A program made the translations under genes and the position numbers. Under the pieces are notes generated by a model. It ran no database searches and was not told the origin of the DNA. It saw only the letters and a program-made list of their open reading frames with translations. DNA of 23,809 bases. Origin: a virus. Below, piece by piece: positions 827-19,827 of this stretch (positions within the stretch are counted from its first letter, which is position 1; every line of letters starts with the position of its first letter). The DNA is taken from IMG/VR virus record IMGVR_UViG_3300037189_027064, positions 1 to 23,809 of that record. The stretch is one strand, 5' to 3'.

Positions 827-1513
827 ATGAATTATACCAAAATATACGATCGACTTATACTACGAGCACAATCTAGACTTCAAAGTAAAGGCGAGTATTA
901 TGAAAAACATCATATTATACCTCGATGCCTCAGTGGCACAGACGAGAAAGAAAATCTCGTCTCTCTTACCGCTAGAGAACATTTTATAGCACACCTTTGT
1001 CTTGTTAAGATTCATCCAGGTAACGGCTCATTAGTTAGAGCCGCTATGATGATGGCTTGTGAAAGCACTAATCAGAATCGCTCTGCTAATCGAGTATACG
1101 AATGGTTAAGAATAAAGCACTCAAAAGCAATGAGTCAATCACAGACCGGAAAAGGAAATAGCCAGTTCGGAACAAGTTGGATTTTTAACCAAACGACCAA
1201 TACTAATAAGAAAGTCCCAAATGACCAAATATCAAATTATTTGGAATCAGGATGGATTAAAGGAAGAGATGTAAAGTTCTATACCTGTGCGGTTTGTTTA
1301 AAATCTTTTAGTCATCATTTTAAAAAGAACACCTGTAGCAGTAAATGTTCTAAAATAGACAAACGACCGTTTCAAGTATTTGAAGGTAGAGAGCAAGAAT
1401 TCTTAGATCATTATCAAAATCTTAAAAGTATGAACAAGGCGTTACAGGCTATGGGATTCAAAGGAGCAATAAGTCACTACTACAAGTGGGCTAGATCAGT
1501 GCTTGACAAGTAG
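827..1513 (+). CDS. HNH homing-type endonuclease
   Basis: 228 aa. The N-terminal half holds an HNH nuclease core: EKHHIIPRC (about 26-34, catalytic HH), then ENLVSLTAREHFIAH (about 42-56) with the motif Asn and His, typical of phage free-standing HNH enzymes. Residues about 115-147 (GTSWIF ... SGWIKGR) resemble the short DNA-binding motifs between nuclease and C-terminal parts of such proteins. Four Cys (154, 157, 170, 174) form a probable zinc ribbon. The C-terminus (about 190-228) may be a helical DNA-binding tail. It would make a site-specific DNA break to spread its own gene. It is a single gene inserted between a tRNA and the early promoter of the next gene, and is less GC-rich than the small genes around it, which fits transfer. 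Confidence 0.88.
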   Translation: MNYTKIYDRLILRAQSRLQSKGEYYEKHHIIPRCLSGTDEKENLVSLTAREHFIAHLCLVKIHPGNGSLVRAAMMMACESTNQNRSANRVYEWLRIKHSKAMSQSQTGKGNSQFGTSWIFNQTTNTNKKVPNDQISNYLESGWIKGRDVKFYTCAVCLKSFSHHFKKNTCSSKCSKIDKRPFQVFEGREQEFLDHYQNLKSMNKALQAMGFKGAISHYYKWARSVLDK

Positions 1514-5942: not shown

Positions 5943-6025
5943 AAGTAGGCGTGTTCCTGATCCTAGTCCTTGTGCTGTTCCTGCTGAACTTGGCCCTACT
6001 CTACATAGCCATCGACCGTCTGTGA
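5939..6025 (+). CDS. 28-aa single-pass membrane peptide
   Basis: ATG 5939 in ATGA overlap with the previous gene, stop TGA 6023-6025 overlapping the next GTG. Nearly the whole peptide is one hydrophobic helix (VFLILVLVLFLLNLALLYIA) with a charged end (DRL). Overlap coupling on both sides is the main evidence that it is real. Function unknown; it may modulate its membrane neighbour. Confidence 0.6.
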   Translation: MKVGVFLILVLVLFLLNLALLYIAIDRL

Positions 6026-6330
6026 GCACACAACAACAGATCACTGCTTTTATATACGACCGCAAGGGCCGTGTGCTCTCAGTGGGTCAGAACAGCTATA
6101 TCAAGACCCACCCACTACAAGCAGAGCATGCTCGCAGAGTGGGAGAACCGCACAGGCAGTTTCTACACGCAGAGATCTCCGCGATCACACGCTGTAGGGA
6201 CTTGAGCAGAGCCTATAGAATGCAGGTTATCAGATATAACAGGCAGGGTGAACCAGTACTGGCCCGACCTTGTGCAGTATGCGAGTCAGCCATCCGAGCC
6301 ACTCCTATTCAGAAGATTGAGCACACCTGA
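6022..6330 (+). CDS. Short cytidine/dCMP deaminase-fold protein
   Basis: 102 aa from GTG 6022 (GTGA overlap). It has the zinc-dependent deaminase signature: H49-A50-E51 (HAEISAI), then P83-C84-x2-C87 (RPCAVCESAI). The N-terminus (AFIYDRKGRVLSVGQNSY) matches the first strands of the fold. This family removes an amino group from cytosine or adenine in nucleosides, nucleotides or RNA. It is shorter than T4 dCMP deaminase (Cd) and lacks that enzyme's extra zinc region, so the substrate cannot be named. The C-terminus ends soon after the second motif, so the last helix may be truncated. Last gene of the early run; a role in nucleotide supply or base modification is likely. Confidence 0.75.
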   Translation: MSTQQQITAFIYDRKGRVLSVGQNSYIKTHPLQAEHARRVGEPHRQFLHAEISAITRCRDLSRAYRMQVIRYNRQGEPVLARPCAVCESAIRATPIQKIEHT

Positions 6331-6336
6331 GGGGCT

Positions 6337-6421
6337 CTGGGGCGTAAATTTAAACACGCTAGCTATAACTTGCTAGCCGCTTGCCCTAAATGCCCCAGTG
6401 TTAGATAGAATCACCAGGGGC
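6337..6421 (+). ncRNA. Nested hairpin with a competing alternative hairpin
   Basis: Outer arms CTGGGGC (6337-6343) and GCCCCAG (6392-6398) enclose inner arms GCTAGC (6358-6363 and 6372-6377) with an 8-nt loop; both share the centre 6367.5 with equal 14-nt flanks. GCCCC (6392-6396) can instead pair with GGGGC (6417-6421), with GTG/CAC (6398-6400/6412-6414) extending it. Whether this acts as RNA or DNA is unknown. Confidence 0.4.
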
Positions 6422-6493
6422 CGAGATCTCCAAACCCTAAAAAATTTGCGCGCCCAAAATTTAGCACTGTGTATAGTGACCGGGCCCTGAGTG

Positions 6494-6552
6494 CAGGGAA
6501 GTCTAAAAACCCTTGCTCTAAATAGATTTCCCTGATTAAAAAATTTTTTTAC
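6494..6552 (+). terminator. Possible terminator-like hairpin with A/T run
   Basis: CAGGGAA (6494-6500) pairs with TTCCCTG (6528-6534) across a 27-nt loop, followed by a TTAAAAAATTTTTTTA palindrome to 6552. The long loop makes it a poor intrinsic terminator, but it is at the end of the early gene run. Confidence 0.35.
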
Positions 6553-6863
6553 AGAATTTTTACTCTGCTGCTAAGACCGGTGTGAACCACAACCACGTGG
6601 ACAACCCTTTATTTCCCATAGTACTAGATAAGGACCTGTATGTGCCACACTCATCAGCAGCCACATTAGACTCATAGAGTTTGATGAACCGCACACTATG
6701 CTGTTTAGATTGGGATTAATTATACTGACCGCAAATCCCATCAAAAACAAGGGTGCCGGTGCGTATTTGACCAGTTGTTTTGCGTAGTAAAATAACTGTA
6801 AGCGGCCCCATTTCATATACAAGTTATTTACACTTACTGGGATTTTATATTCATTGTTATACT

Positions 6864-7452: not shown

Positions 7453-7489
7453 TGTGTGCATGTTGTCATTGACATGCACACATTTTTTT
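7453..7489 (+). terminator. Strong intrinsic terminator
   Basis: An 11-bp perfect stem (7453-7463 with 7472-7482), 8-nt loop, then seven T (7483-7489). It ends transcription of the 7190 gene. Confidence 0.92.
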
Positions 7490-7496
7490 GTATACT
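7469..7496 (+). promoter_or_regulatory. Sigma70-like promoter nested in the terminator
   Basis: TTGACA (7469-7474) lies in the loop and right arm of the terminator hairpin; TATACT (7491-7496) follows after 16 bp. Start near 7503 would place the AAGGAGGT (7505-7512) at the very 5' end of the mRNA for the gene at 7523. Confidence 0.6.
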
Positions 7497-7522
7497 GTAT
7501 CTGCAAGGAGGTAAGCCTATAT

Positions 7523-8074
7523 ATGGCCAATACATTTTATCTTGACATGGACGGTGTAGTAGCAGATTGGAGTAAGGGTGTTTCCCAACTGTTGGGACAT
7601 GAAATCTCCACCGATCCCACTGCAAGAATGTCCGATTCTGATTGGGCTCGAGTACTGGAGCATCCCAGACTATTTCGTGATCTACCTTTAATGCAGGGTG
7701 CGGATCAATTGGTTGATCTAGCTCGTGCCTATCGTGATCAATTGGGTTGGGAGTTATTGTTTCTCACTGCTATTCCGCATCTCAATGATGTACCGTGGGC
7801 ATTTTGGGACAAGATGTTGTGGGCCCAGCGGTATTGGCCCGATATTCCAGTTCACTTTGGGCCCCATAGTTATGATAAACAGGTGCATTGTACACAGGGG
7901 GATATACTGGTAGATGATCGACCCGATAACTGTGAGCAGTGGCAGTCTGCTGGGGGATTGGCCTTTCAAGTTACGGGATCTTTAGCATCAGTTAGGCCGT
8001 TATTGGAAGAAGATTTTAATCGTAGACACAGTTTACGCAATCAGAATCTTATAATTCTGGATCTTGATCAGTAG
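7523..8074 (+). CDS. HAD-family 5'(3')-deoxyribonucleotidase-like phosphatase
   Basis: 183 aa. ATG 7523 is set by AAGGAGGT at 7505-7512; an upstream in-frame extension to 7454 would run through the terminator. HAD motifs: I, D8-M-D10-G (YLDMDGVVADW); II, T82 in FLTAIP; III, K119; IV, GDILVDDRPDN with D131/D132. The layout and the DMDGVVADW start match the 5'(3')-deoxyribonucleotidase (NT5C-type) family, which removes phosphate from deoxynucleoside monophosphates. A role in nucleotide salvage during infection fits. It is not the GmhB phosphatase of the heptose pathway, by motif context. Cytoplasmic. A terminator follows at 8127. Confidence 0.8.
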   Translation: MANTFYLDMDGVVADWSKGVSQLLGHEISTDPTARMSDSDWARVLEHPRLFRDLPLMQGADQLVDLARAYRDQLGWELLFLTAIPHLNDVPWAFWDKMLWAQRYWPDIPVHFGPHSYDKQVHCTQGDILVDDRPDNCEQWQSAGGLAFQVTGSLASVRPLLEEDFNRRHSLRNQNLIILDLDQ

Positions 8075-8639: not shown

Positions 8640-9317
8640 CTAGATGCTCAAATCTTGATCATGTGCTTGATCTAGAAAATTAACCAGTTTTTCAACAACT
8701 TTTGCGTTTCTTAGGGTTTTATATACTAGATTAGCTACCCCATATTCACCGGTCTGTTTTAGGCCTAATTTGCGATATTTTCTTAATAAATCTAGAAGTT
8801 TTTTGGCACTTTCGACGTCTTTTGACCTAATTATGAACAGAATTATTTTACGCCACACTCTATACATTCTGTCAATTTCTGCAGTATCTATTTCGATAGA
8901 TTCTGCCGGATTTGGTTCCTTAATCCACTGATTATCTTTTAGACTCCAGCTAGCACCTTTGGCTGGTAATTTTTTATCTTCAACATACAGCTCTACGTCA
9001 ATTCCTCTAATCTTAATATTAGTTTTGGTATTATACAATAATCTTTTAGTGTCGAATAATTCTTCTAGTTCTGTATCGCATTTGATCTTAGCATAATCCA
9101 CGATTAGATGCAGATCTAGATCGCTATGTTTATTATAAAAATACGAAGCCTGACTGCCAGTGATAACAATGTCTTCAACTTCAAAAGGTATTTCTACAAA
9201 CTGTTTAAAGTCAGCAGCGGTCTTTATCAGAGTGGCGCGCACTTCCGGCCTCAGTGTACCGTTTCGCCAAAGCAAGGGATTTAGATCAGATTTCGGAGTT
9301 AACTCAAGTATTTCCAT
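8640..9317 (-). CDS. Nucleotidyltransferase-fold protein
   Basis: 225 aa, ATG 9317. Pol beta-type nucleotidyltransferase core: GSQAS (54-58), then DLDLH (66-70) with two metal-binding Asp, and a third acidic strand DVELYVED (107-114). These are the defining motifs of the superfamily, which transfers an NMP to a protein, RNA or small molecule; the acceptor is unknown. The C-terminal half is helical and basic. Related phage proteins occur in T4-like genomes of aquatic hosts without known role. Starts divergently from the AlgH-like gene with a late-type promoter GATAAATA ending 7 nt before its ATG, and no Shine-Dalgarno. Confidence 0.8.
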   Translation of the reverse strand: MEILELTPKSDLNPLLWRNGTLRPEVRATLIKTAADFKQFVEIPFEVEDIVITGSQASYFYNKHSDLDLHLIVDYAKIKCDTELEELFDTKRLLYNTKTNIKIRGIDVELYVEDKKLPAKGASWSLKDNQWIKEPNPAESIEIDTAEIDRMYRVWRKIILFIIRSKDVESAKKLLDLLRKYRKLGLKQTGEYGVANLVYKTLRNAKVVEKLVNFLDQAHDQDLSI

Positions 9318-9346: not shown

Positions 9347-9910
9347 ATGAATTTATCCAATCTTAAAGGCCAGCTTTTAGCATCTCATCCCAAACGTGCT
9401 GAACCCGCACTACGCAAGGGTGTTATTTTAGTAGTTCGTCATGATGAGACCGGTGCAGTAGGTTTACAAATCAATAAGCAATTTCACGACGAGTCGTTTA
9501 CCTTGTACACCGTTATGAAAAATCAAGGGCTGTACACAGACCTCGACCAACCGTTATATTACGGAGGGGATGATGGTCCCAGTAGAATACATATAATTCA
9601 TTCGCTGGATTGGTATTCTAGCAGTACCGTTAAAATAAATCAAAACATAGGTGTCAGCAACGATGTCAGTATATTAGCTGCGATTTCCGAAAACGAAGGG
9701 CCCGAATATTTTAGAGCAATTGCAGGGTACACCAAATGGGGCCGTGGAAAATTAGATCTAGAAGTTCTAGGACAAGAACCTTATTCTATAGTAGACTCTT
9801 GGAGTTGCGCTCCTGCTTCGATGGAATCAGTATTTGAACTAGACGACATAGACCAGTGGTATAAAGTCATAGATGACTCAACAAAAATTCAAGTATCCGC
9901 CTGGTTTTAA
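9347..9910 (+). CDS. AlgH/UPF0301 (YqgE) family protein
   Basis: 187 aa, ATG 9347; the in-frame extension to 9254 lies inside the divergent gene. Family features: ALRKGVILVVRHDETGAVGL (21-40) followed by QIN, YYGGDDGPSRIHIIHS (71-86), an IAGYTKWGRGKLDLEV stretch and WSCAPAS near the end, matching the order in bacterial YqgE/AlgH (e.g. GxxLNxP, GGP..., GYxGWxxGQLExE). The bacterial proteins have a solved fold but no settled biochemical function; AlgH was named for alginate regulation in Pseudomonas. A phage copy is unusual. Late-type promoter; stop shares TTAA with the convergent helicase gene. Confidence 0.78.
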   Translation: MNLSNLKGQLLASHPKRAEPALRKGVILVVRHDETGAVGLQINKQFHDESFTLYTVMKNQGLYTDLDQPLYYGGDDGPSRIHIIHSLDWYSSSTVKINQNIGVSNDVSILAAISENEGPEYFRAIAGYTKWGRGKLDLEVLGQEPYSIVDSWSCAPASMESVFELDDIDQWYKVIDDSTKIQVSAWF

Positions 9911-11352
9911 TCTCCGGGATTCAATCCTGATCTAATATAGTTTCTAATATCAAATGCTGTTTTAGCATCTTTGATTTTGCCCACGCTGATTCCTTTGGTG
10001 GGATTTATTTCTTGATCCGATGCAGCCTCCGCATTATCATTATTGGTTAAAGAACTTGTTCGTTTTAGTGAGTTAGCTATTGCGCCGGGGCCTGAATTCT
10101 TTGATTCCTGACCATAAGAATCATCCTCTCCGAGGTCAGAGATTCTCAATGTGTCTAGATTAAAATCAAGATCAACTTTTTGTCCCACACCTGAACTATT
10201 TCTAGTTTTCATAAATTGAATTTGATATCTACCCCGCTCTTTCATAGCACGGCTGGTAAAAATGCCAATCACATTATCTGCTGTCATAATCTTACTTAGA
10301 CCGCCGGAAATATGACTGTGATCAAACTCAATCTCTTCAACTGCGCTACGATTTAGCTGACTAGCAGTTACAGTAATACACTGTGTTTCCATAGCTAGGT
10401 TACGAATTTCCTCCGAAACATATTTGTCTTTAACAAATAGATCGCTAGGGCTAACCTTGACACTCAGGGGCATCATTAGGTCTAGATAATCTATCAACAA
10501 CACATCGGGTTTACACCCTTTCTTAACTTGATATTCTTTTAGATATGCGCGTATGTCGTTACAATTTTTTCCCGACGGCATATATTTTACCTGCATATTG
10601 CCGGACTTTTTGCCCAGCATTTTAACCTTGAGTTCTACATCATCGATGCTTTTAAAAATTTCACGAGTACTAATTCCTGTGGTCATGGAATCTAGGCGCA
10701 TTGCCACTAGTCCTTCGCTAAGTTCAAATGTTAGATATAGAACATTCAGACCAGCCAGTGCCCAGTTTACTCCCAGATTAGCCAAGAATAAACTTTTGCC
10801 TCCCCCGGAACCTGCACAGAAAATGTTTAGTTCACCTCGATTAAATCCACCATAAAGTTTTTTATCAATAGTAGGCCAACCAGTACTGATCTGTCCGTTA
10901 CCGTCTTTGAGTTTGGTCAATCTTGATTTTGGGTCTTCAAAGTAATCAGTGCCCATATCTTTATTAAGACTAATTTGAATAGCGTCTTTGACCAATTTCT
11001 CTACTGGACCATACTCGCCTTTTTCTAAAAGATCAGCTGACTGCAAAATCGCTCTTTCAAGAGCCTTGTGTCTTGTAAAATTTTCAAACTCATCCATCAG
11101 CCATTCATAATTTTCTTTTGGTAAAGAGACCGATTGAAAGTCAGAATCGCAAGCCGAGTTCACAATGGTTACCTCGGGCATTACTTTGTATTTGTCAACG
11201 TAGCCGTTGATGAATACCGCAACCTCTTGTAGTTTTCTATCAAAGTTCTCGGGATCAAAAATGTTTTGACAACGAACAAATGTTTCTGCATCTGACAAAA
11301 ACATTTCTAAATATAATTTTTGAATTTCGAGATTGTATTTCGACTTAGCCAT
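9907..11352 (-). CDS. 41: Replicative DNA helicase, DnaB/gp41 type
   Basis: 481 aa. N-terminal helical domain (about 1-135), then RecA-like motor: Walker A AGSGGGKS (180-187), TFELSEG (208-214) with the catalytic Glu, Walker B VLLIDYLDLM (284-293), TASQLNRSAVEEIE (about 329-342), and ISGGLSKIMTADNVIGI (about 348-364). This is the hexameric helicase that unwinds DNA 5'-3' at the fork and works with primase. Overlaps the primase gene by 8 nt, as the two proteins act together. The C-terminal 70 residues are Ser/Asn-rich and probably flexible. No Shine-Dalgarno conflict; ATG 11352 within the primase end. Confidence 0.93.
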   Translation of the reverse strand: MAKSKYNLEIQKLYLEMFLSDAETFVRCQNIFDPENFDRKLQEVAVFINGYVDKYKVMPEVTIVNSACDSDFQSVSLPKENYEWLMDEFENFTRHKALERAILQSADLLEKGEYGPVEKLVKDAIQISLNKDMGTDYFEDPKSRLTKLKDGNGQISTGWPTIDKKLYGGFNRGELNIFCAGSGGGKSLFLANLGVNWALAGLNVLYLTFELSEGLVAMRLDSMTTGISTREIFKSIDDVELKVKMLGKKSGNMQVKYMPSGKNCNDIRAYLKEYQVKKGCKPDVLLIDYLDLMMPLSVKVSPSDLFVKDKYVSEEIRNLAMETQCITVTASQLNRSAVEEIEFDHSHISGGLSKIMTADNVIGIFTSRAMKERGRYQIQFMKTRNSSGVGQKVDLDFNLDTLRISDLGEDDSYGQESKNSGPGAIANSLKRTSSLTNNDNAEAASDQEINPTKGISVGKIKDAKTAFDIRNYIRSGLNPGD

Positions 11353-12340
11353 TGATATGTTCTAACTTTTTCTTTAGTAGTTGTATTTTTATCTCGTTAC
11401 TTTCTCTGTATTTTAAAATCGTGAATAAAGTGTAAACTCTTCCGTATTGTTTAACAGCATCGGCTACATCTTTAACATCGTCTCCCCATTCCGGAAGGCT
11501 AACTGACCAATTATGCTCAATGGCCGCATTAATTATTTTAGATCCTGCTCGATCTCTATCAGGAACAACAACTACCTCTTTGCTCAATGCATTTATTCTA
11601 GTACACTGAATTTCATTGGGGTCATTGTGCATAATAGCCACACCATCTACTGCAATAGCATCCAATTGTCCCTCGACTACTATTAGATATTTTCTATCAT
11701 ATCCCTGTCGATCTAGATTAAACACATACCCAGGTTGAGAGTGTGTAAGATACTTGGGGTTGCCTTCTCGAATTTTTCGACCAGTATAACCAACAATCTT
11801 TCCCTCATGATAAAATGGCACAATCAATCGATCTCGATAACTGTCAGTATTGGCCCACATCCAAGGATACCAATCTAGACTCATTCCTCTTTGATCAACA
11901 TATTCGATAACTGAAAGTAAATCCGCATTATCAACACCTTCTTGAATCCATTCTGATAACGTTTTGCAATTGTCGGGCAATGATCTTACTTCGAGATCAA
12001 AATTCAGTAATTTTTTAGTCGGTGACTGTTCTTCTCTAAATTTCAAAGCAGTTAGTGCCAATCGACCGATTTCAATATCAGAAAGGCCCAACCACTTAAA
12101 CAATTGTCGATTATTAAAACTTAAAAGACTACCCGGAGACCATACTGTGGTATATCCACAATTAAAACAATTATAGCTAAACCCATTATTATGGGTCGGA
12201 AGTATCCCACCCCGTTGCCTATCATCTCGAGATTCTCCCCTATGATGACAGCAAATGGCATTAAAGCTGATCCAACCGCTGGGAGTAGTTTTTCTCTTTG
12301 GAGGCAACAGAGCCATTAAGGTAGCATAGATTTCATCCAC
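11345..12340 (-). CDS. 61: DNA primase, gp61-like
   Basis: 331 aa. An N-terminal zinc-binding region (C30-C31-H32-H33 ... C58-x2-C61, with CFNCGY) is followed by a linker and a TOPRIM catalytic domain: LIVVEGQLDAIA (219-230) with E223, and VVVPDRDRAG (257-266) with D261/D263. The zinc module reads the template and the TOPRIM domain makes RNA primers. Works with the helicase encoded immediately downstream. ATG 12340 has only a weak ribosome site, 9 nt after the upstream stop. TOPRIM motifs and gene order support gp61 strongly. Confidence 0.9.
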   Translation of the reverse strand: MDEIYATLMALLPPKRKTTPSGWISFNAICCHHRGESRDDRQRGGILPTHNNGFSYNCFNCGYTTVWSPGSLLSFNNRQLFKWLGLSDIEIGRLALTALKFREEQSPTKKLLNFDLEVRSLPDNCKTLSEWIQEGVDNADLLSVIEYVDQRGMSLDWYPWMWANTDSYRDRLIVPFYHEGKIVGYTGRKIREGNPKYLTHSQPGYVFNLDRQGYDRKYLIVVEGQLDAIAVDGVAIMHNDPNEIQCTRINALSKEVVVVPDRDRAGSKIINAAIEHNWSVSLPEWGDDVKDVADAVKQYGRVYTLFTILKYRESNEIKIQLLKKKLEHING

Positions 12341-12349
12341 GCTATTAGT

Positions 12350-13186
12350 TTAGCTTCTATATAGAGCTTTGTCAAAAGAACCGTAATAAGCAGGATTGTC
12401 GTTATCCATATCAAGCAAACTTTGGTCAGGAATATGTCTTACTCTGATATAAGAATAAACTCCATTAAAGTTTATGTAATCTCGGCCGGAAAATCCATCG
12501 TATACTCGAGAATTTATAACGCTATAACTGGTATCCTGACTAGGACTATTATCGAGTGTACCTTCAATATATACTGTTCCCCTATAGGCAGATAGATAAA
12601 ATGCTATGGTGTGTAAAGCGGTGTTGCCGTTAAACGCAGGGTCTGCGTAGATATGCCCGCTCTTGTGCTCGTATTTTAATAGGTTGTCATTCCAGTGCTT
12701 GGTGAATGCAGATATTACCACACTGTCCTGTAGAACTGGATAAACTTCATTGGTCAAATGCAGTGTTCCTGCCATTCCATAATAGGTGTTAGAATACGTG
12801 GGCAAATATGTGCCGTCCGAGTCTAACAGTTTGATAGTAAACTGATAACTGGATCTATCTAAGTCTAATGTATCACTTTCGTTTAAGGTTAATAATGCCA
12901 ATCCCTTAGTAGAGGTAGTTGCTGTATCTAGTATTTCAAGTTCTTTTTCTACTAACAGTCTACGGTTAACTGCGTCAAACATACTGAACACAAAAGTTTG
13001 AGTATTATAAATTCTAACTTTCTTTTGATCACTATTTTTGAATTGTATTCTAACTTGATTTTTGATGCCTTTTTGAATTTTAAGGTCTCTCTGATACATA
13101 ACCTGGTTAACTCCTCTTACGGTAGCATCCAAATCTAATGTTACATTTATTACATTGGCGTATAAATAGATTGGTAAATTTTGCAT
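12350..13186 (-). CDS. Probable virion structural protein
   Basis: 278 aa from ATG 13186. A longer in-frame reading to 13225 lacks a ribosome site, and the AATAAATA late-type promoter sits 5 nt before 13186. Beta-rich, with Asn/Tyr/Ser/Asp-rich strands and no catalytic motif (MQNLPIYLYANVINVTLDLD at the start; TYSNTYYGMAGTLHL; DYINFNGVYSYIRV near the end). This composition and the late-type promoter suggest a tail, neck or fibre component rather than a replication protein, despite lying just upstream of primase. Similar uncharacterised proteins are familiar from aquatic T4-like phages. Exact role unknown. Confidence 0.6.
   Translation of the reverse strand: MQNLPIYLYANVINVTLDLDATVRGVNQVMYQRDLKIQKGIKNQVRIQFKNSDQKKVRIYNTQTFVFSMFDAVNRRLLVEKELEILDTATTSTKGLALLTLNESDTLDLDRSSYQFTIKLLDSDGTYLPTYSNTYYGMAGTLHLTNEVYPVLQDSVVISAFTKHWNDNLLKYEHKSGHIYADPAFNGNTALHTIAFYLSAYRGTVYIEGTLDNSPSQDTSYSVINSRVYDGFSGRDYINFNGVYSYIRVRHIPDQSLLDMDNDNPAYYGSFDKALYRS
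13161..13168 (+). promoter_or_regulatory. T4-type late promoter core inside the opposite-strand gene
   Basis: Exact TATAAATA on the plus strand, within the first codons of the minus-strand structural gene. Predicted start near 13174, giving a 34-nt leader to ATG 13208. Confidence 0.45.
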
Positions 13187-13191
13187 ACCTG

Positions 13192-13199
13192 TATTTATT
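13192..13199 (-). promoter_or_regulatory. T4-type late promoter, minus strand
   Basis: AATAAATA (13199-13192). Predicted start is exactly the ATG at 13186, so the mRNA would be leaderless. Confidence 0.45.
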
Positions 13200-13207
13200 T
13201 GAATGAG

Positions 13208-13585
13208 ATGAGAGACCACTTCCAAGAAAATTTCCCCTTTATATCCTGTATTAAATCAAACGATAAAGAATATGTGGGTATAATTATTAATTTTGATAAT
13301 CTTATTGCTAGCATTTATGACTTATCAATGATATCAAATGAAGAATTACGAAAAAATTTCCTCGATATGGGAGAAGTATGGTGGTGGGAATCTAATAGAA
13401 AAATACCCATAAACATTTTTCTTAAATTCGAAATGCAACTTTTCAAACCTTATATTAAAACTTTTAACTCAAAAGATGTTGAGTTATTATTCGGCCCGGT
13501 AGTTAATCTAAGTGAAATCGCTGAAAAAAGAATTAAAAGAAAATCAATTCAATTGGTTCGAACTGTCAAGAATCCCCGTAACTAA
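13208..13585 (+). CDS. Hypothetical protein, convergent single gene
   Basis: 125 aa from ATG 13208; a TTG at 13181 in frame is also possible but lies across the opposite promoter. Mixed alpha/beta, with a distinctive EVWWWESNRKIPINIFLKFE stretch (three Trp in a row) near the middle and a basic C-terminus (KRIKRKSIQLVR). No signal peptide, membrane helix or catalytic motif. I recall similar proteins with a WWWESNR core in T4-like phages of aquatic bacteria, with no known function. Late-type promoter upstream. Its end overlaps the opposite-strand polymerase-like gene by 42 nt. Confidence 0.65.
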   Translation: MRDHFQENFPFISCIKSNDKEYVGIIINFDNLIASIYDLSMISNEELRKNFLDMGEVWWWESNRKIPINIFLKFEMQLFKPYIKTFNSKDVELLFGPVVNLSEIAEKRIKRKSIQLVRTVKNPRN

Positions 13586-14143
13586 CTTTTCACATATAAG
13601 ATTCATTTGAACTACAATTGCAGATGCATATGCAATAGCGTGACTACGTTTGAAATAATATTCATCTGATACAGGTTTAAGCCAAATTTCTTTCAGTACA
13701 TCATCCCAATTCTTACCGATTAGGTATCTTTTAGCTGGTCGAATCAATGCCAAAACTGCCGCAAGTTGTTCTATACTTTGTGGCTTCATTTTTCTAAGAA
13801 TACTTCCCTGTCCATTTACGTGAAACAAAAGATCAGTAAACTCATCTTGTTCTAGAAGATCCCAAAGAGGTTCGGTATTAAGTAATTTAATCAAATGTTC
13901 TTCATCAGTTACTTCTCGGTAAATGCCAACATTTAAAAAATCTATTTTGAAATATCCTCTTGCCTCAGCCTCTTTATATTCGAAACTAGCAGTGCTGGTA
14001 ATAGGATTGACTGGAATTTTTTGAAAGTAAACTCCGGTCTTGTGTTTTTTAAAAGAGTCCTTGTCTTTGATTGTAGCAGGAATATGCTCTAAGATTTCTA
14101 GGATTTTTGATCTATCTGCAAAATCAATATCAATATCAGTCAT
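13544..14143 (-). CDS. Miniature DNA polymerase III alpha (DnaE)-like protein
   Basis: 199 aa, ATG 14143 (ATGA overlap with the kinase gene). It reads like a condensed DnaE palm/fingers: DIDIDF (3-8) matches the PDxDxDF catalytic loop with two Asp; KKHKTGVYF (32-40) matches the RHxAGVV region; YFKIDFLNV (64-72), with D68, matches the KFDFLGL loop that holds the third catalytic Asp; LIRPAKR (133-139) corresponds to the ALxRPGP loop; FKRSHAIAYA (164-173) matches FNKSHAxAYA. Full DnaE is about 1,160 aa, so PHP, most of the fingers and the C-terminal domains are missing. Polymerase activity is not proven; it could be a regulatory or primer-handling protein. It ends the heptose-enzyme run. Confidence 0.65.
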   Translation of the reverse strand: MTDIDIDFADRSKILEILEHIPATIKDKDSFKKHKTGVYFQKIPVNPITSTASFEYKEAEARGYFKIDFLNVGIYREVTDEEHLIKLLNTEPLWDLLEQDEFTDLLFHVNGQGSILRKMKPQSIEQLAAVLALIRPAKRYLIGKNWDDVLKEIWLKPVSDEYYFKRSHAIAYASAIVVQMNLICEKLVTGILDSSNQLN

Positions 14144-14922
14144 TCTAAAACAATAGCAGATAGATCATTTTGTGTCAATGAGTAAACCCCACGATGCCGT
14201 ACCGTGATAGAAGCACATTGATTGGCAAAATTAATCGCACGATCCATACATTGGGATTTGAGAAATTCGAAGGTCAATGCTGCTAAGAATGTATCTCCTG
14301 CGCCGCATACATCAACTACTTCAGTAGGACACGGAGAGTACGATTTGCCTCGATATTGTGCACCTCGGCTGCCTAATGTAACAATAAGATTATTACATTT
14401 TGAAATACTTTGTCGATATTCTTGCTCGTTAATTTTTACATAACACCCTTCAAATCGAGCAAGATCTCTTTTTTTAGTATCAATAAAAATAGGACCTGGA
14501 TAGCAAGTTCGTATTGATTCGACATTTTGGTAGGTCATAAAACCTTTATCGTAATCAGAAATAACTATGGCATCATATTTCTCAAAAGTTGAACCTATTG
14601 GGCCTAAAATTAACGGATCGCTTTGATAATCTTCGTCTACCCGAACAATATGTTGTTTGCTACGTTCGTCTATATATCTTTTTTTGATACTTTGAGTTTG
14701 ACTGGTTATGAACTCAACTTCGCATCCAAAAGATTCGAGATTGTCTTTGACATTTGCTGCCATTCCGGGTTTAGACTCGCGCCTAAGGATTTTAAGAACG
14801 GGTACAGGTGCCTCCGGATTTAATCTATCACAGGTTCCATAGTAATATTCGTCTAGACAACTATCGCCTATCAATAATACTTTGAATTTTTTGTGTGGTT
14901 GAATATTTTTCAAGTCTGCCAT
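14140..14922 (-). CDS. hldE: D-glycero-beta-D-manno-heptose-7-phosphate kinase (HldE N-domain type)
   Basis: 260 aa, PfkB/ribokinase fold. The N-terminus VLLIGDSCLDEYYYG (15-29) and NPEAPVPVLK (35-44) match HldE domain I closely, PGMAANV (52-58) fits the sugar-binding GGAANV loop, and DVCGAGDTFLAAL (204-216) is the ATP/anion-hole motif with catalytic D210. The reaction is phosphorylation of heptose 7-phosphate to the 1,7-bisphosphate, for ADP-heptose synthesis. About 50 residues shorter than the bacterial domain, with a shortened central region. Encoded separately from the adenylyltransferase, with which it overlaps by 62 nt. ATGA overlap with the next gene. Confidence 0.85.
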   Translation of the reverse strand: MADLKNIQPHKKFKVLLIGDSCLDEYYYGTCDRLNPEAPVPVLKILRRESKPGMAANVKDNLESFGCEVEFITSQTQSIKKRYIDERSKQHIVRVDEDYQSDPLILGPIGSTFEKYDAIVISDYDKGFMTYQNVESIRTCYPGPIFIDTKKRDLARFEGCYVKINEQEYRQSISKCNNLIVTLGSRGAQYRGKSYSPCPTEVVDVCGAGDTFLAALTFEFLKSQCMDRAINFANQCASITVRHRGVYSLTQNDLSAIVLE

Positions 14923-15265
14923 AAAATTCTATTCGTTTACAATATTCAGATCCTAAAATCGGTTTTCCTTGATAATCACTGCCCTTGATCATTAGATCAG
15001 GAGAATAATTTTTTATAAGATCAACTAATTCCTGATCCGAATCAAATACATCAACTCTATCTACTGATTTTAGAGAAGCTAAAAAATAGCATCTTTCATA
15101 TTCTGTGTTAACCGGACGAGTCGGACCTTTTAATTCTCGTATTCGCCGATCGCTGTCAGTCAACACATAAACAAAGGAATTAGGCCAGGATTTTGCGTAT
15201 TCCAATAATTTTAAATGTCCAAGATGCAGTATGTCAAATGAACCATTAACTACAATTTTCATCAT
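14861..15265 (-). CDS. hldE: Heptose-1-phosphate adenylyltransferase (HldE C-domain type)
   Basis: 134 aa. Rossmann-type nucleotidyltransferase: VNGSFDILHLGHLKLL (6-21), with the HxGH motif at 14-17; TDSDRRIRELKGPTRPVN (36-53), and DLMIKGSDYQ with EKYSTTQKI near the C-terminus, matching HldE domain II (VNSD...RLKG..RPVN, LLVKGGDY, CSTT). It joins AMP from ATP to D-glycero-beta-D-manno-heptose 1-phosphate, giving ADP-heptose. ATG 15265 overlaps the epimerase stop by 4 nt. The gene order transferase then kinase is the reverse of the domain order in fused bacterial HldE. Confidence 0.88.
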   Translation of the reverse strand: MMKIVVNGSFDILHLGHLKLLEYAKSWPNSFVYVLTDSDRRIRELKGPTRPVNTEYERCYFLASLKSVDRVDVFDSDQELVDLIKNYSPDLMIKGSDYQGKPILGSEYCKRIEFYGRLEKYSTTQKIQSIIDRR

Positions 15266-16032
15266 ATGCTATAGTGTTTTTTTAATTTAGCAGTATCGGC
15301 ACAGGTATATGTTTGATATTGATCTTTTACATTATCGGGCATAGGTATATACTCAATTACTGCATTATATTCTTTGGCAATATCTTCGGCAACCTTTTGA
15401 AATGATCTCGGTTGACCTGTACCCACATTCCATATCCCCGATTCTTTAACGTTAAAAAATTTCTTATGTACATCGACCACAGTTTCTACAGGTACAAAAT
15501 CTCTAAGGTATTGATCAGAATTTTCAAATAGTTTGATTACACCAGTTTCCTGTGCCTGTTTTTTAAATTTATGATATGGACTGGCCTGATCTCCTTTGTG
15601 GTCTTCATAGGGGCCGTATACATTAAAATATCTAAATCCCTGTATATAGATTCCTTTCCAGGCACGACTACGAACATATCTTTCAAACAAATATTTGCTC
15701 CAGGCATAGGGACTTTGCGGACTCACTGGAGCGTTTTCAGAAAAATTTTGCGTTAGTCCGTATACACCGGCACTGCTTGCATATTGCAAATTGACTTGCC
15801 ATAGCCAGCATTCGTTGAGTAACCAACAACTAAAATCGTAATTTTGTTGCATGATCATCTCAATGTTTTTTTCAGTGGTAGAACTGTTAGCACCTAAGTG
15901 AATAACCCAATCTAACCCTCGAACATTTGGCAGATTATCTCCCCATTCGTGAAATGTTAAATCATGGTCTGCTAGGTCCTTGGTCATATTTTGACCAATA
16001 AATCCTCGATAGCCCGTAATTAAAATTTTCAT
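15262..16032 (-). CDS. hldD: ADP-L-glycero-D-manno-heptose 6-epimerase-like (HldD type)
   Basis: 256 aa, extended SDR. NAD(P) site GYRGFIG (7-13); catalytic Ser region YASSAGVYG (84-92); catalytic Y109-x3-K113 (YAWSK); then GFRYFNVYGP (132-141), RDFVPVETVVDV, WNVGTGQPRSFQKVA, and YIPMPDNVKDQYQTYTCAD near the end, following HldD order and sequence closely. Converts the D-glycero to the L-glycero epimer of ADP-heptose, used for the LPS inner core. A little shorter than bacterial HldD (about 310 aa), mainly in the N-terminal half. ATGA overlaps on both sides. Confidence 0.87.
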   Translation of the reverse strand: MKILITGYRGFIGQNMTKDLADHDLTFHEWGDNLPNVRGLDWVIHLGANSSTTEKNIEMIMQQNYDFSCWLLNECWLWQVNLQYASSAGVYGLTQNFSENAPVSPQSPYAWSKYLFERYVRSRAWKGIYIQGFRYFNVYGPYEDHKGDQASPYHKFKKQAQETGVIKLFENSDQYLRDFVPVETVVDVHKKFFNVKESGIWNVGTGQPRSFQKVAEDIAKEYNAVIEYIPMPDNVKDQYQTYTCADTAKLKKHYSI

Positions 16033-16385
16033 TTTTGGCTATCGCCCTTGGCCACTCGATAATTATCTTCTACACTATCCGGAGTACTGACTTCGATGAT
16101 TGTGCCTTCTACAAGACAGATAACCTGATGAGGGAACAAGGGTTCGTTCCTCCAGGTATCACCTGCTCTTAGAATACGACTATCTTGAGATGCATCTTTA
16201 GTATTAATCCATCGAACTTCAAATCTTCCATCAAGAACATACCAAGTTTCATCTTTTTCTGCATGAAAATGCATACTAAATCGAGCACCGGTGTTAAACT
16301 TTAACAGTTTTCCGCAATATTTTTCATTGGTGGCCCAAATTAATTCGTGTCCCCAGCCTTTCTCTACAAACCCTTCTAATCTCAT
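16029..16385 (-). CDS. Cupin-fold protein, mannose-6-phosphate isomerase-like
   Basis: 118 aa, ATG 16385 with AAGGAAA upstream. Opens VEKGWGHELIW, as in cupins of the mannose-6-phosphate isomerase type II group; MHFHAEKDETWYVLDGRFEV (38-57) carries the metal-binding His-x-His ... Glu, and PHQV (about 85-88) supplies the later His. The double-stranded beta-helix binds a metal and often a sugar or sugar phosphate. First gene of the heptose run, overlapping the epimerase by 4 nt, so it probably acts on the same or a related sugar phosphate. It could be an isomerase or binding protein; the sequence does not decide. Confidence 0.78.
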   Translation of the reverse strand: MRLEGFVEKGWGHELIWATNEKYCGKLLKFNTGARFSMHFHAEKDETWYVLDGRFEVRWINTKDASQDSRILRAGDTWRNEPLFPHQVICLVEGTIIEVSTPDSVEDNYRVAKGDSQK

Positions 16386-16615: not shown

Positions 16616-16710
16616 TTTTCAATGTCTTTAAAATAAATTCCATATTTGTAATAGTAGACTTTTTCATTATATGATTTCCAGTAATGATAAATTTTAAGCA
16701 AGATTTTCAT
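16612..16710 (-). CDS. 32-aa Tyr/Lys-rich peptide
   Basis: ATG 16710 overlaps the previous stop and its own TGA (16612-16614) overlaps the next ATG, both as ATGA. This double coupling is strong evidence that it is translated. The sequence is basic and aromatic, with MKILLKIYHYWKSYNEK at the start and seven Tyr. No other motif. Too short for a family call. Confidence 0.65.
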   Translation of the reverse strand: MKILLKIYHYWKSYNEKVYYYKYGIYFKDIEK

Positions 16711-17402
16711 GATATTGTACATTCTTTTAAAATTTCTAAAACCAGAGCAGTATCTGCTGGTCTTTCTTTGAACCTCTTTGTCCAATATTTAACGTCAAAA
16801 ACAGGTGAGATCATAATTAACTGCTCATCACTCATTTTATCTATCATAGTTTTTGCCTGATTACTATTAAGAATAACCCAACAACTAATCTTTCCATTTA
16901 CGATATCGTGTACTGCACGATTAAGACTAGCATATTCAAAATAATGTTCGTAACAGGCGCCTGTTTCATCAGCCCAATCCATCATCGTTTGAATTGATCT
17001 TTGAACTGCCGATTCTACCGGTTCGACCTTAAGAATTTCTTGTAGATATTTTTCATAGAGTTCATCCCTGCACCAATGATCTAATTTAACTCCGCTTTTG
17101 ATTACAAAGTCGATAAATCTATCCGGATACAATGGACTAATATTGTTAATAAAAGAACCAAATTTTACAAAGGCATTATAGTAAGAACTATCAGCGAAAT
17201 CATCATAGGTTTTAGATTTTTTATTGTTTTGTGTTAGTTGCCAAAATCTATTAAATGCTAAAAACCCTGCCTGTACTCTCTTCTCGTCTTTCTGTAGCGC
17301 ACGCCGCTTTCTTTCGCACATATGCGCCACAAGAGTCTTTTCCTTCATGAAGGTCTTGGAACAATGCACACAGACAAAGGGCTGTTCTACCAAAGCGATC
17401 AT
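16707..17402 (-). CDS. Putative helicase loader (gp59-like) with an N-terminal zinc finger
   Basis: 231 aa. C11-x2-C14-x12-H27-x2-C30 (FVCVHCSKTF ... VAHMCERKRR) is a C2H2/C2HC-type zinc finger with a basic tail. From about residue 45 the protein is all-helical, and the order of conserved positions resembles T4 gp59: a YNAFVKFGSFI helix, then FVIKSGVKLDHWCRD, a YEKYLQEIL helix, and later NGKISCWVIL and IDKMSDEQL. gp59 loads gp41 helicase on gp32-coated DNA, and both partners are encoded here. T4 gp59 has no zinc finger. The similarity is by eye and distant, so the name is tentative; it could be another DNA-binding replication protein. Confidence 0.5.
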   Translation of the reverse strand: MIALVEQPFVCVHCSKTFMKEKTLVAHMCERKRRALQKDEKRVQAGFLAFNRFWQLTQNNKKSKTYDDFADSSYYNAFVKFGSFINNISPLYPDRFIDFVIKSGVKLDHWCRDELYEKYLQEILKVEPVESAVQRSIQTMMDWADETGACYEHYFEYASLNRAVHDIVNGKISCWVILNSNQAKTMIDKMSDEQLIMISPVFDVKYWTKRFKERPADTALVLEILKECTIS

Positions 17403-17866: not shown

Positions 17867-18370
17867 TTACCAACATTTAGTAAAGTCAATTGTTTCACTT
17901 TGCCTGCTAACTTCTTTTACAAAATATACACACAGCGGCTCGGATCCGGGATGTAATGGGGTACATAATAGTTGTCCAGGTTTCATTTTAGGAAAATACC
18001 ATTTGACGTCTTGATATATATCAATAATATCAATATCTAAAAATTCGGGTTTAAAGCTAGTTAAAGGATTGAATACAAAAGTTTTAAATCCTCTATCATT
18101 TAAACTGGTTAATGGAAGCACCTCCATGTCAGAACTTTCTGGATCACCTACTACTGCACACCAATCTAGAGGCATGTTAATTTCATATTGCCCTATTTTT
18201 AATACTGCGGCTGGGCCAGTAAAACTTTCCAGGAATATTAGAGGAATGAAAAAGTAATCTGGATTCTGATGATCGCTGTTATCCAGCACCGCAAATCTTA
18301 GATCATCATCAATCTCTTCCGGAAGTTCGTTTAGGTAAAATGTTTCGTTGTTTAAATTTAGTATCTGCAT
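17867..18370 (-). CDS. Conserved phage hypothetical protein
   Basis: 167 aa; ATG 18370 shares a base with the UvsW stop (TAATG). Mostly beta, hydrophobic and Pro/Asp-rich: PLDWCAVVGDPESSDMEVLP in the centre, KWYFPKMKPGQLLCTPLHPG near the end, then EVSRQSE. The second motif is suggestive of a binding loop. No nucleotide-binding, zinc or membrane motif. I recall similar sequences in T4-like phages of aquatic hosts, always unassigned. Its place between uvsW and the clamp-loader-like gene suggests a replication or late-transcription role, but this is inference. Confidence 0.7.
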   Translation of the reverse strand: MQILNLNNETFYLNELPEEIDDDLRFAVLDNSDHQNPDYFFIPLIFLESFTGPAAVLKIGQYEINMPLDWCAVVGDPESSDMEVLPLTSLNDRGFKTFVFNPLTSFKPEFLDIDIIDIYQDVKWYFPKMKPGQLLCTPLHPGSEPLCVYFVKEVSRQSETIDFTKCW

Positions 18371-19827
18371 TATATATATTTTACCTTCTGAATCGTGAAA
18401 TTGTATCTAGCATCTTTATAAAATTTTTTTCGTTCTGTTAAATGCCGCTTTGAATATTTGCAGGTACTAGTTATGTCAAAGATATTAACATGATCTTTGT
18501 CGTCGGCTTTACGAAGACCTCGACCGATACTTTGAATTACTCTAACAAAACTTTTACCCGGTTCAACAAGCACCAGATTGAAAAGTCTAGGAATATTAAT
18601 TCCCACGGCGGCAACACCATACGTGGCTACTATAATTTTATTGTCGGCAATCTTTACTTCGTCGTACTCTTCTTTTCTAACTTTTGATTTCATGGAACCG
18701 GAAATGAATACACTATCCGGAATTTCGTTAACCAGTATTTGTCCCGATTCTAATCGATCTACTAATACCAATGTATTGCCAGTTTTTGCAATTTCTTTTA
18801 CAATTCCAGATACCCATGTCATTCTATCAATATCAGTGACTAAAAATTTTAGTTCTTCAGCATATCCTTGAAATTCTTTCCATTCGGCTGTTTGAATAAC
18901 ATTAACTGTACAATCACTAAGGATCCCTTTTTCTTGCAGTTCGTGTGCGGACACTCGATTAACAACTTCGCCTAGACTGGCTCTAAGGCTTTGAAATTCA
19001 AAATCTTGTTTAGGAACAGTACCAGTTAGTCCCCATCGAATAGGGGCATTGTTTAAATTAAAAGTAAGGAGCTTTTTAAGAACCTCTGCTTTGGCCATAT
19101 GAACTTCGTCTACCATAACTGTTTTTATACCATCTAAAAATTCTGCCAATGTTATGATATCTGCTTCATCATTTTTAGTTTTTTTATCTAGTACGTTAAG
19201 ACTTTGCCAGGTACAAATAGTATGTGTTCTGTTAAGCTCTTTTCTATCTCCGTAATACACCCCAACATCTAAACCGCAATTTAAAAAATCTTCTTCAGTT
19301 TGTAATACCAAGTCCTTATTAGGAACAATGGTAATAGTTCTTCCGATTTTTTCACAAACTTTTGCCAAAGTAGCAGTAGTAATTGTTTTACCAAACCCGG
19401 TTGCAATTTCTTGCAGGCATTGAGGATTTTCTAAAAATTTGTTAATGACTTCAACCTGATCTTCTCTAAGACGTATAGGATGACCGGCAAATCGATGTCC
19501 ATCAGGCCAACACTTTTCTCCCCAAAAATCTTCAGAAATTTTTGAAAAAGTTAATTCTAAAGGAACGCGCAGATCCTCGAGCTCAATATAATAATTTTTT
19601 TGTTCTAAATATTCTAGGACTTGAGGCAACATCGAGAGATAAGTTGTCCCACCGAGGCCAAAAAAGCTCACAGTTCCGTCCCAACGACCTAATTTATAGG
19701 CAGGTCGATATCGTGCCGTAGGATCTTCATACTTAAATTTTTTCACCAGAGCTTTTCTAGAATCTAAATCTAGATTTTCTATTTTTACATTAACTTCGTC
19801 TTTGATAATTATTTTACAAGAAGACAA
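18370..19827 (-). CDS. uvsW: UvsW-type recombination helicase
   Basis: 485 aa, superfamily 2 helicase. N-terminal region (1-115) binds DNA. Motor: RLREDQ (119-124, Q-like motif), motif I ATGFGKT (142-148), motif Ia IVPNKDLVLQ (167-176), motif II DEVH (240-243), motif III LTGT (267-270), motif IV-V FISGSMKS and ATYGVAAVGIN, motif VI QSIGRGLRK (about 435). T4 UvsW unwinds branched DNA and R-loops and shifts replication from origin- to recombination-dependent starts. Size and motifs match. Coupled to a 396-aa gene upstream (14-nt overlap) and to UvsY and UvsX genes in the same operon. Confidence 0.92.
   Translation of the reverse strand: MSSCKIIIKDEVNVKIENLDLDSRKALVKKFKYEDPTARYRPAYKLGRWDGTVSFFGLGGTTYLSMLPQVLEYLEQKNYYIELEDLRVPLELTFSKISEDFWGEKCWPDGHRFAGHPIRLREDQVEVINKFLENPQCLQEIATGFGKTITTATLAKVCEKIGRTITIVPNKDLVLQTEEDFLNCGLDVGVYYGDRKELNRTHTICTWQSLNVLDKKTKNDEADIITLAEFLDGIKTVMVDEVHMAKAEVLKKLLTFNLNNAPIRWGLTGTVPKQDFEFQSLRASLGEVVNRVSAHELQEKGILSDCTVNVIQTAEWKEFQGYAEELKFLVTDIDRMTWVSGIVKEIAKTGNTLVLVDRLESGQILVNEIPDSVFISGSMKSKVRKEEYDEVKIADNKIIVATYGVAAVGINIPRLFNLVLVEPGKSFVRVIQSIGRGLRKADDKDHVNIFDITSTCKYSKRHLTERKKFYKDARYNFTIQKVKYI

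Follow-up and report, generated by a model that had tools for sequence, protein, structure and literature searches.

The window, that is, the whole 23.8-kb stretch of the IMG/VR virus record IMGVR_UViG_3300037189_027064, carries a minus-strand series of replication genes (Table 1), within which a complete open reading frame of 199 aa with an ATG start almost certainly encodes the C-terminal half of a split DNA polymerase III (Pol III) core (hereafter C-half). Over the same interval, frame 1 of the plus strand is broken by many stops.

Table 1. Features at and around the C-half gene (positions in the window; E. coli numbering refers to DnaE).
Feature	Position	Strand	Remarks
Predicted C-half of split minimal DNA polymerase III alpha (phrog_11778)	13544..14143	minus	199 aa, ATG start
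Codons D3 to D7 (DIDID)	14123..14137	minus	D3/D5 = E. coli D401/D403; D3, D5 and D7 invariant in 86/86
Codons K66-I67-D68 (FKIDF)	13940..13948	minus	= E. coli K553/D555; K66 and D68 invariant in 86/86
UvsW helicase, conserved upstream member of replication/recombination cluster	18370..19827	minus	relatives' loci
C2H2-zinc-finger-like protein (phrog_11058), usual upstream neighbour of C-half	16707..17402	minus	profile match and relatives
Sugar cassette: PfkB-like (HldE kinase-like), cytidylyltransferase-like (HldE C-part), NAD-dependent epimerase, cupin	14140..16385	minus	profile matches
Small ORF (phrog_11637, unknown)	13181..13585	plus	convergent with C-half, 3' ends overlap
Virion-structural-like protein (phrog_14467), conserved downstream neighbour of C-half	12350..13225	minus	profile match and relatives
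DNA primase (gp61-like)	11345..12340	minus	same position in relatives
DnaB-like replicative helicase (gp41-like)	9907..11352	minus	same position in relatives

In the relatives' loci these genes follow a conserved order (UvsW, two small genes, the C2H2-like gene, the C-half, a small opposite-strand gene, the structural-like gene, primase and DnaB). A reading made earlier from the letters of the window only (the sequence-only reading) had thought the place of the C-half, at the end of a sugar cassette, an odd one: the cassette does adjoin the C-half, but it is an insertion, found only in this phage and part of its relatives, that separates the C-half from the C2H2-like gene in an otherwise conserved replication cluster. 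Some of the cassette genes occupy this place in about a dozen of 80 IMG/VR relatives, and in most of the rest the C2H2-like gene is followed by the C-half; the HldE-like kinase and nucleotidyltransferase of the cassette are separate, overlapping genes. The most constant neighbour of all is the small phrog_11637 ORF, found on the strand opposite the C-half in 88 of 91 loci, and a functional link between the two is possible.

Elsewhere in the window, a 225-aa protein encoded at 8640-9317 (minus strand; the gene lies downstream of DnaB in about 12 relatives) bears a Pol beta-superfamily nucleotidyltransferase-like signature (VITGSQASYFYNKHSDLDLHLIV) and a weak Pfam match to the MTPAP-like palm (E 0.005, below the cut-off). 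An HNH/homing endonuclease (phrog_655) is encoded in the left part (827-1513, plus strand), and genes for a dCMP-deaminase-like protein (6022-6330) and a 5'-deoxyribonucleotidase-like protein (7454-8074), both on the plus strand, suggest nucleotide-pool functions.

The four motifs whose occurrence in the order of DnaE had been noted earlier are all present in the C-half frame, now assigned to the minus strand. In the alignment with E. coli DnaE, DIDIDF (residues 3-8) corresponds to DFDVDF (401-406), FKIDFLNV (65-72) to KFDFLGL (553-559), LIRPAKR (133-139) to ALFRPG (636-641) and FKRSHAIAYA (164-173) to FNKSHSAAYA (756-765); furthermore, a KH..G motif (33-37) aligns with KHAGG (510-514), and the first residue of the C-half matches Met399/Pro400. 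A survey of homologues, as had been proposed for the Asp residues, found D3, D5, D7 and D68 invariant in all 86 aligned sequences, together with H34, G37, K66, R135, P136, K138, K165, H168 and Y172. The claim that all three catalytic Asp positions are kept was borne out: by alignment, the catalytic triad of the C-half would consist of D3, D5 and D68, corresponding to D401, D403 and D555, which we take to be the catalytic residues of E. coli DnaE, whereas D7 aligns with D405 and lies outside these three.

At the level of profiles, the best match of the C-half was to phrog_11778 ("DNA polymerase"; E 1.3e-68, residues 2-187 on positions 7-195 of 197) and the second-best to the full-length phage DnaE phrog_405 (E 1.9e-9, positions 579-678 of 1190), while Pfam returned only DNA_pol3_finger (PF17657; 31 of 166 positions) at 19.2 bits, under the cut-off of 22. 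HMM-type comparison, suggested earlier as a check, was thus positive for the phrog_405 profile but weak for hhalign against the single E. coli DnaE sequence, where the probability was only 27.6%. Since matches to solved structures were marginal (DnaE at E 0.042 with the single sequence; E 0.0011 with the profile), a structure model was needed for the kinship with DnaE. The AF2 model (mean pLDDT 88.6, from an alignment of 37 sequences) was closest to DnaE/PolC by far: the 15 best VIA-align matches were all DnaE/PolC (Z 9.2-5.7, 180-198 residues, rmsd 3.6-5.8), as compared with Z 3.2 for the next unrelated match, and the model spanned residues 400-784 of E. coli DnaE with large parts skipped. 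Foldseek likewise gave its top 15 places to DnaE/PolC (best E 1.2e-3), though by itself it yielded no match below E 0.001 for either the C-half or the N-half described below. Thus the proposed kinship with DnaE was upheld by profiles and by the comparison of the predicted structure with DnaE/PolC palms, and none of the outcomes named in advance as counter-evidence (no profile match, no palm fold, loss of the Asp residues) was seen.

On the other hand, the C-half holds only the second part of the Pol beta-type palm, with the Asp triad. It is without the palm part that bears GRGSGAGS, the thumb, PHP, most of the index-finger insertion, HhH, OB and the clamp-binding parts, and at 199 aa it is too short to contain PHP or HhH. 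In a rough pairwise alignment, the fingers insertion (the region of E. coli R709/R710; the DnaE domain borders and the role of this Arg pair are assumed here from general knowledge) has shrunk to ~25 residues, with no clearly matching Arg pair. Given the lost thumb and the shortened fingers insertion, dNTP binding must differ or be weak, and template handling must differ from that of DnaE.

Clear homologues of the C-half were found in at least 60 GenBank phage records, nearly all of them jumbo phages (including RaK2, 121Q, PBECO4, GAP32, CBB, PA5oct, Atu_ph07, SCTP-2 and XacN1), and relatives were encoded on 106 confirmed IMG/VR stretches. The family looks phage-specific, since bacterial and archaeal genome contigs gave just 17 matches, all of them in uncultured/MAG records; the close matches among these are probably phage contigs, and three weak ones are probably ordinary Pol III. 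In 80 of 80 metagenomic relatives the frame was open and ~190 aa long with constant boundaries. Among the best 80 loci of the scan, no C-half start lay more than a few residues from PDIDIDF, the open frame ahead of it never exceeding 25 codons, and the GRGS motif was absent from the C-half and every homologue examined.

In E. coli DnaE, GRGSGAGS lies at 361-368, well ahead of the motif equivalent to DIDIDF. A PF07733 search of whole relatives revealed a second small gene (hereafter N-half; 157-183 aa) in 13 of 14 jumbo-phage records, the miss being a 166-kb contig; its match was above the cut-off (45.8 vs 23.9 bits), and the genes found in this way had an invariant G.GRGS and ended at or just past EF(L/F). 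Across N-halves GRGSS was nearly invariant, and all of the 76 metagenomic N-halves checked terminated at EFLR/DFLR or close variants. hhalign placed the N-half on E. coli DnaE with 95.5% probability, the alignment ending at residue 393, and residues 71-169 of its AF2 model (pLDDT 89.4) matched DnaE chains (E. coli, M. tuberculosis and others) with Z up to 12.1 (E. coli range 277-393; next unrelated match Z 2.5), whereas no counterpart was assigned to the N-half residues up to about 70. Since the N-half stops at the counterpart of E. coli residue 393 and the C-half starts at that of 399/400, the break in the Pol beta-type catalytic core appears, by alignment and model, to fall after the GS motif and before the Asp motif. 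A natural N+C fusion (Rosetta stone) was sought without success: among the best 80 loci for each half, no N-half frame continued into a C-half, and none of the C-halves left space for a GRGS extension.

Exactly one N-half and one C-half were present in each of 16 large phage records (10 GenBank phages and six IMG/VR contigs of 270-372 kb). Of 60 GenBank phage records listed with a C-half, 59 also carried the N-half; the remaining one was a partial record of 109 kb. The distance between the two genes was 15-224 kb. The N-half opens a fixed series in which a small gene, a GroES-like gene and the gene of the gp44 clamp loader come after it, an order kept in 58 of 58 metagenomic loci long enough to show it and also exemplified by RaK2 and PAC2. 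Within the 23.8-kb window the N-half was not found, nor was it expected there, and the pairing for this phage is drawn from relatives at about 37-71% identity.

A family B polymerase was encoded in 16 of the 16 large records (and was not among the genes identified in the window). This T4 gp43-type replicase has no relation to the C-half, the family B palm fold being unrelated to the family C palm. PHP (PF02811) and HHH_6 (PF14579) were each found in none of the 16 large records, with control genomes positive. A DnaQ-like exonuclease (RNase_T) was present in just eight of the 16 genomes, which does not support it as an obligate partner of the split Pol III.

Like bacterial DnaE/PolC, the C-half has a palm strand with the Asp triad, a conserved Lys, the start of the fingers with the RP motif and the F..SHA..YA helix, and the N-half has GRGS. 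Unlike DnaE/PolC, which are one chain of ~1,160 aa, the phage version consists of two chains of ~170 and 190-200 aa, and it is without PHP, thumb, most of the fingers insertion, HhH, OB and clamp-binding domains. Weak sequence similarity to the C- or N-half was also seen for the "DnaE-like" polymerase of Streptomyces phage Danzina and the Pol III of Bacillus phage G and Chryseobacterium phage MA9V-3. In Danzina and MA9V-3 the enzyme is one full-length chain, unlike the split Pol III, and phage G has been described with a host-like Pol III (PMC7824862); the weak Streptomyces and Bacillus phage matches were rejected as members of the split family, being Pol III of the ordinary kind.

For group 2.2 jumbo phages, a split minimal Pol III alpha was already described by Iyer, Aravind and colleagues in 2021 from genome comparisons (PMC7824862), with the same split (phrog_11778 as C-half, phrog_11127 as N-half) and the same family B company. 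Judged by its sequence, the window gene is a member of this phrog_11778 family, known since 2021, and nothing fundamental differs. The details added here are the exact boundaries, the invariance counts, the one-to-one co-occurrence, the place of the N-half just upstream of gp44, the 15-224 kb spacing and the sugar insertion beside the C-half. In the literature searched, no biochemical test of the split Pol III was found, and in public records its genes are poorly annotated ("hypothetical", "putative membrane protein"). The CBB paper of 2017 reported a "truncated" 172-aa Pol III alpha, CBB_328 (PMC5259590), which by size, number and position is probably the N-half, since the C-half of CBB is CBB_287; the Atu_ph07 paper of 2018 also lists a Pol III alpha subunit (PMC6102473).

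Taken over sequences and models, we consider it probable that the window gene encodes the C-half of a two-polypeptide minimal family C core, which would have one active site and work beside the family B replicase. Several lines of evidence point to this split core: i) the homology of C-half and N-half; ii) the clean cut between them; iii) their co-conservation; iv) their setting among replication genes; v) the family B polymerase in 16/16 large records; and vi) the same reading having been published. Alignments and predicted structures show the C-half to supply the putative Asp triad (D3, D5, D68), K66, the palm part that starts with the active-site Asp motif and the shrunken fingers, and the N-half, in every large relative examined, to supply the first palm part with GRGSS. 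The two halves probably assemble, and we lean towards their assembly being catalytic. The earlier suggestion of a tiny polymerase-like enzyme stands as regards a Pol III-type protein with the catalytic triad, but the protein is half of a split core, the missing palm piece being a second conserved gene in relatives.

In the proposed mechanism, the N-half and C-half chains would associate and rebuild one Pol beta-type active site: GRGSS would bind the nucleotide triphosphate to be added, and two metal ions would be held by the Asp triad. Acting at the phage fork beside the T4-like family B replicase, as its specialised partner, the pair would then attach nucleotides to a primer or a DNA end, for example in primer extension, gap filling or one-strand repair. 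Counted against the split-core reading are the family B replicase in the same phages, which leaves the need for a second polymerase unexplained, the weak similarity of the C-half to solved DnaE (E 0.0011; hhalign 27.6%), and the loss of the thumb together with the reduction of the R709/R710 fingers insertion to ~25 residues.

The main rival, which we hold to be unlikely, is that the halves do assemble but their complex serves as a structural or regulatory replisome part that has kept the palm fold, e.g. in binding primer ends or clamp-loader partners. The loss of the thumb and of the dNTP-binding fingers region, the constant presence of another polymerase and the location of both halves in replication clusters would all suit such a role; however, the Asp triad and Lys are invariant in 86/86 sequences and GRGSS nearly so, and a pure scaffold would have no need for such side chains. 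That the C-half alone acts as a template-independent or very simple nucleotidyltransferase (a mini-polymerase or terminal transferase) appears very unlikely: although all three metal-binding Asp residues are present and a single-chain fold is confidently predicted, the protein has no GS motif, by which Pol beta-type enzymes hold the nucleotide triphosphate, and this motif resides in a second gene of matching distribution.

Phages do attack host replication, and the resemblance of the C-half to part of host Pol III alpha, together with this general knowledge, would fit a decoy or hijacking factor, i.e., a DnaE mimic that binds and disturbs host Pol III or its partners, as the sequence-only reading had also offered. 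However, little is left of the epsilon, clamp or tau contacts (no PHP or HhH), the gene belongs to a core cluster, and the family is shared by phages whose hosts differ widely; given moreover the invariant catalytic residues and the strict co-conservation of the two halves, a decoy became less likely, and we regard it as very unlikely indeed. The small size of the gene and the remoteness of its second half might also be taken for those of a decaying fragment of an acquired DnaE gene, to which the open ~190-aa frame with constant boundaries in 80/80 metagenomic relatives and the invariant motifs leave practically no chance.

Within the split-core reading, a template-directed family C DNA polymerase that consists of two short chains, does without thumb, PHP and full fingers and shares the fork with a family B replicase is a tentative extension that we rate as somewhat doubtful. 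If true, it would be a two-chain polymerase much smaller than any known family C polymerase, and a natural split polymerase that may serve as a model for the ancestral core of Pol III. If the N+C pair is active, the ~360-residue complex would define how little of Pol III nucleotide transfer needs, and two unrelated polymerase families would share one phage fork. As the split Pol III family is widespread in jumbo phages of hosts that can be handled in the laboratory (E. coli, P. aeruginosa), the question is directly testable.

Among the public records of C-half genes, CBB_287 (1450-2100 of the CBB locus) is annotated as "putative membrane protein", and for the C-half of Atu_ph07 (5992-6567 of the locus) the RefSeq start, at 6073 of the locus, omits the DIDIDF motif.
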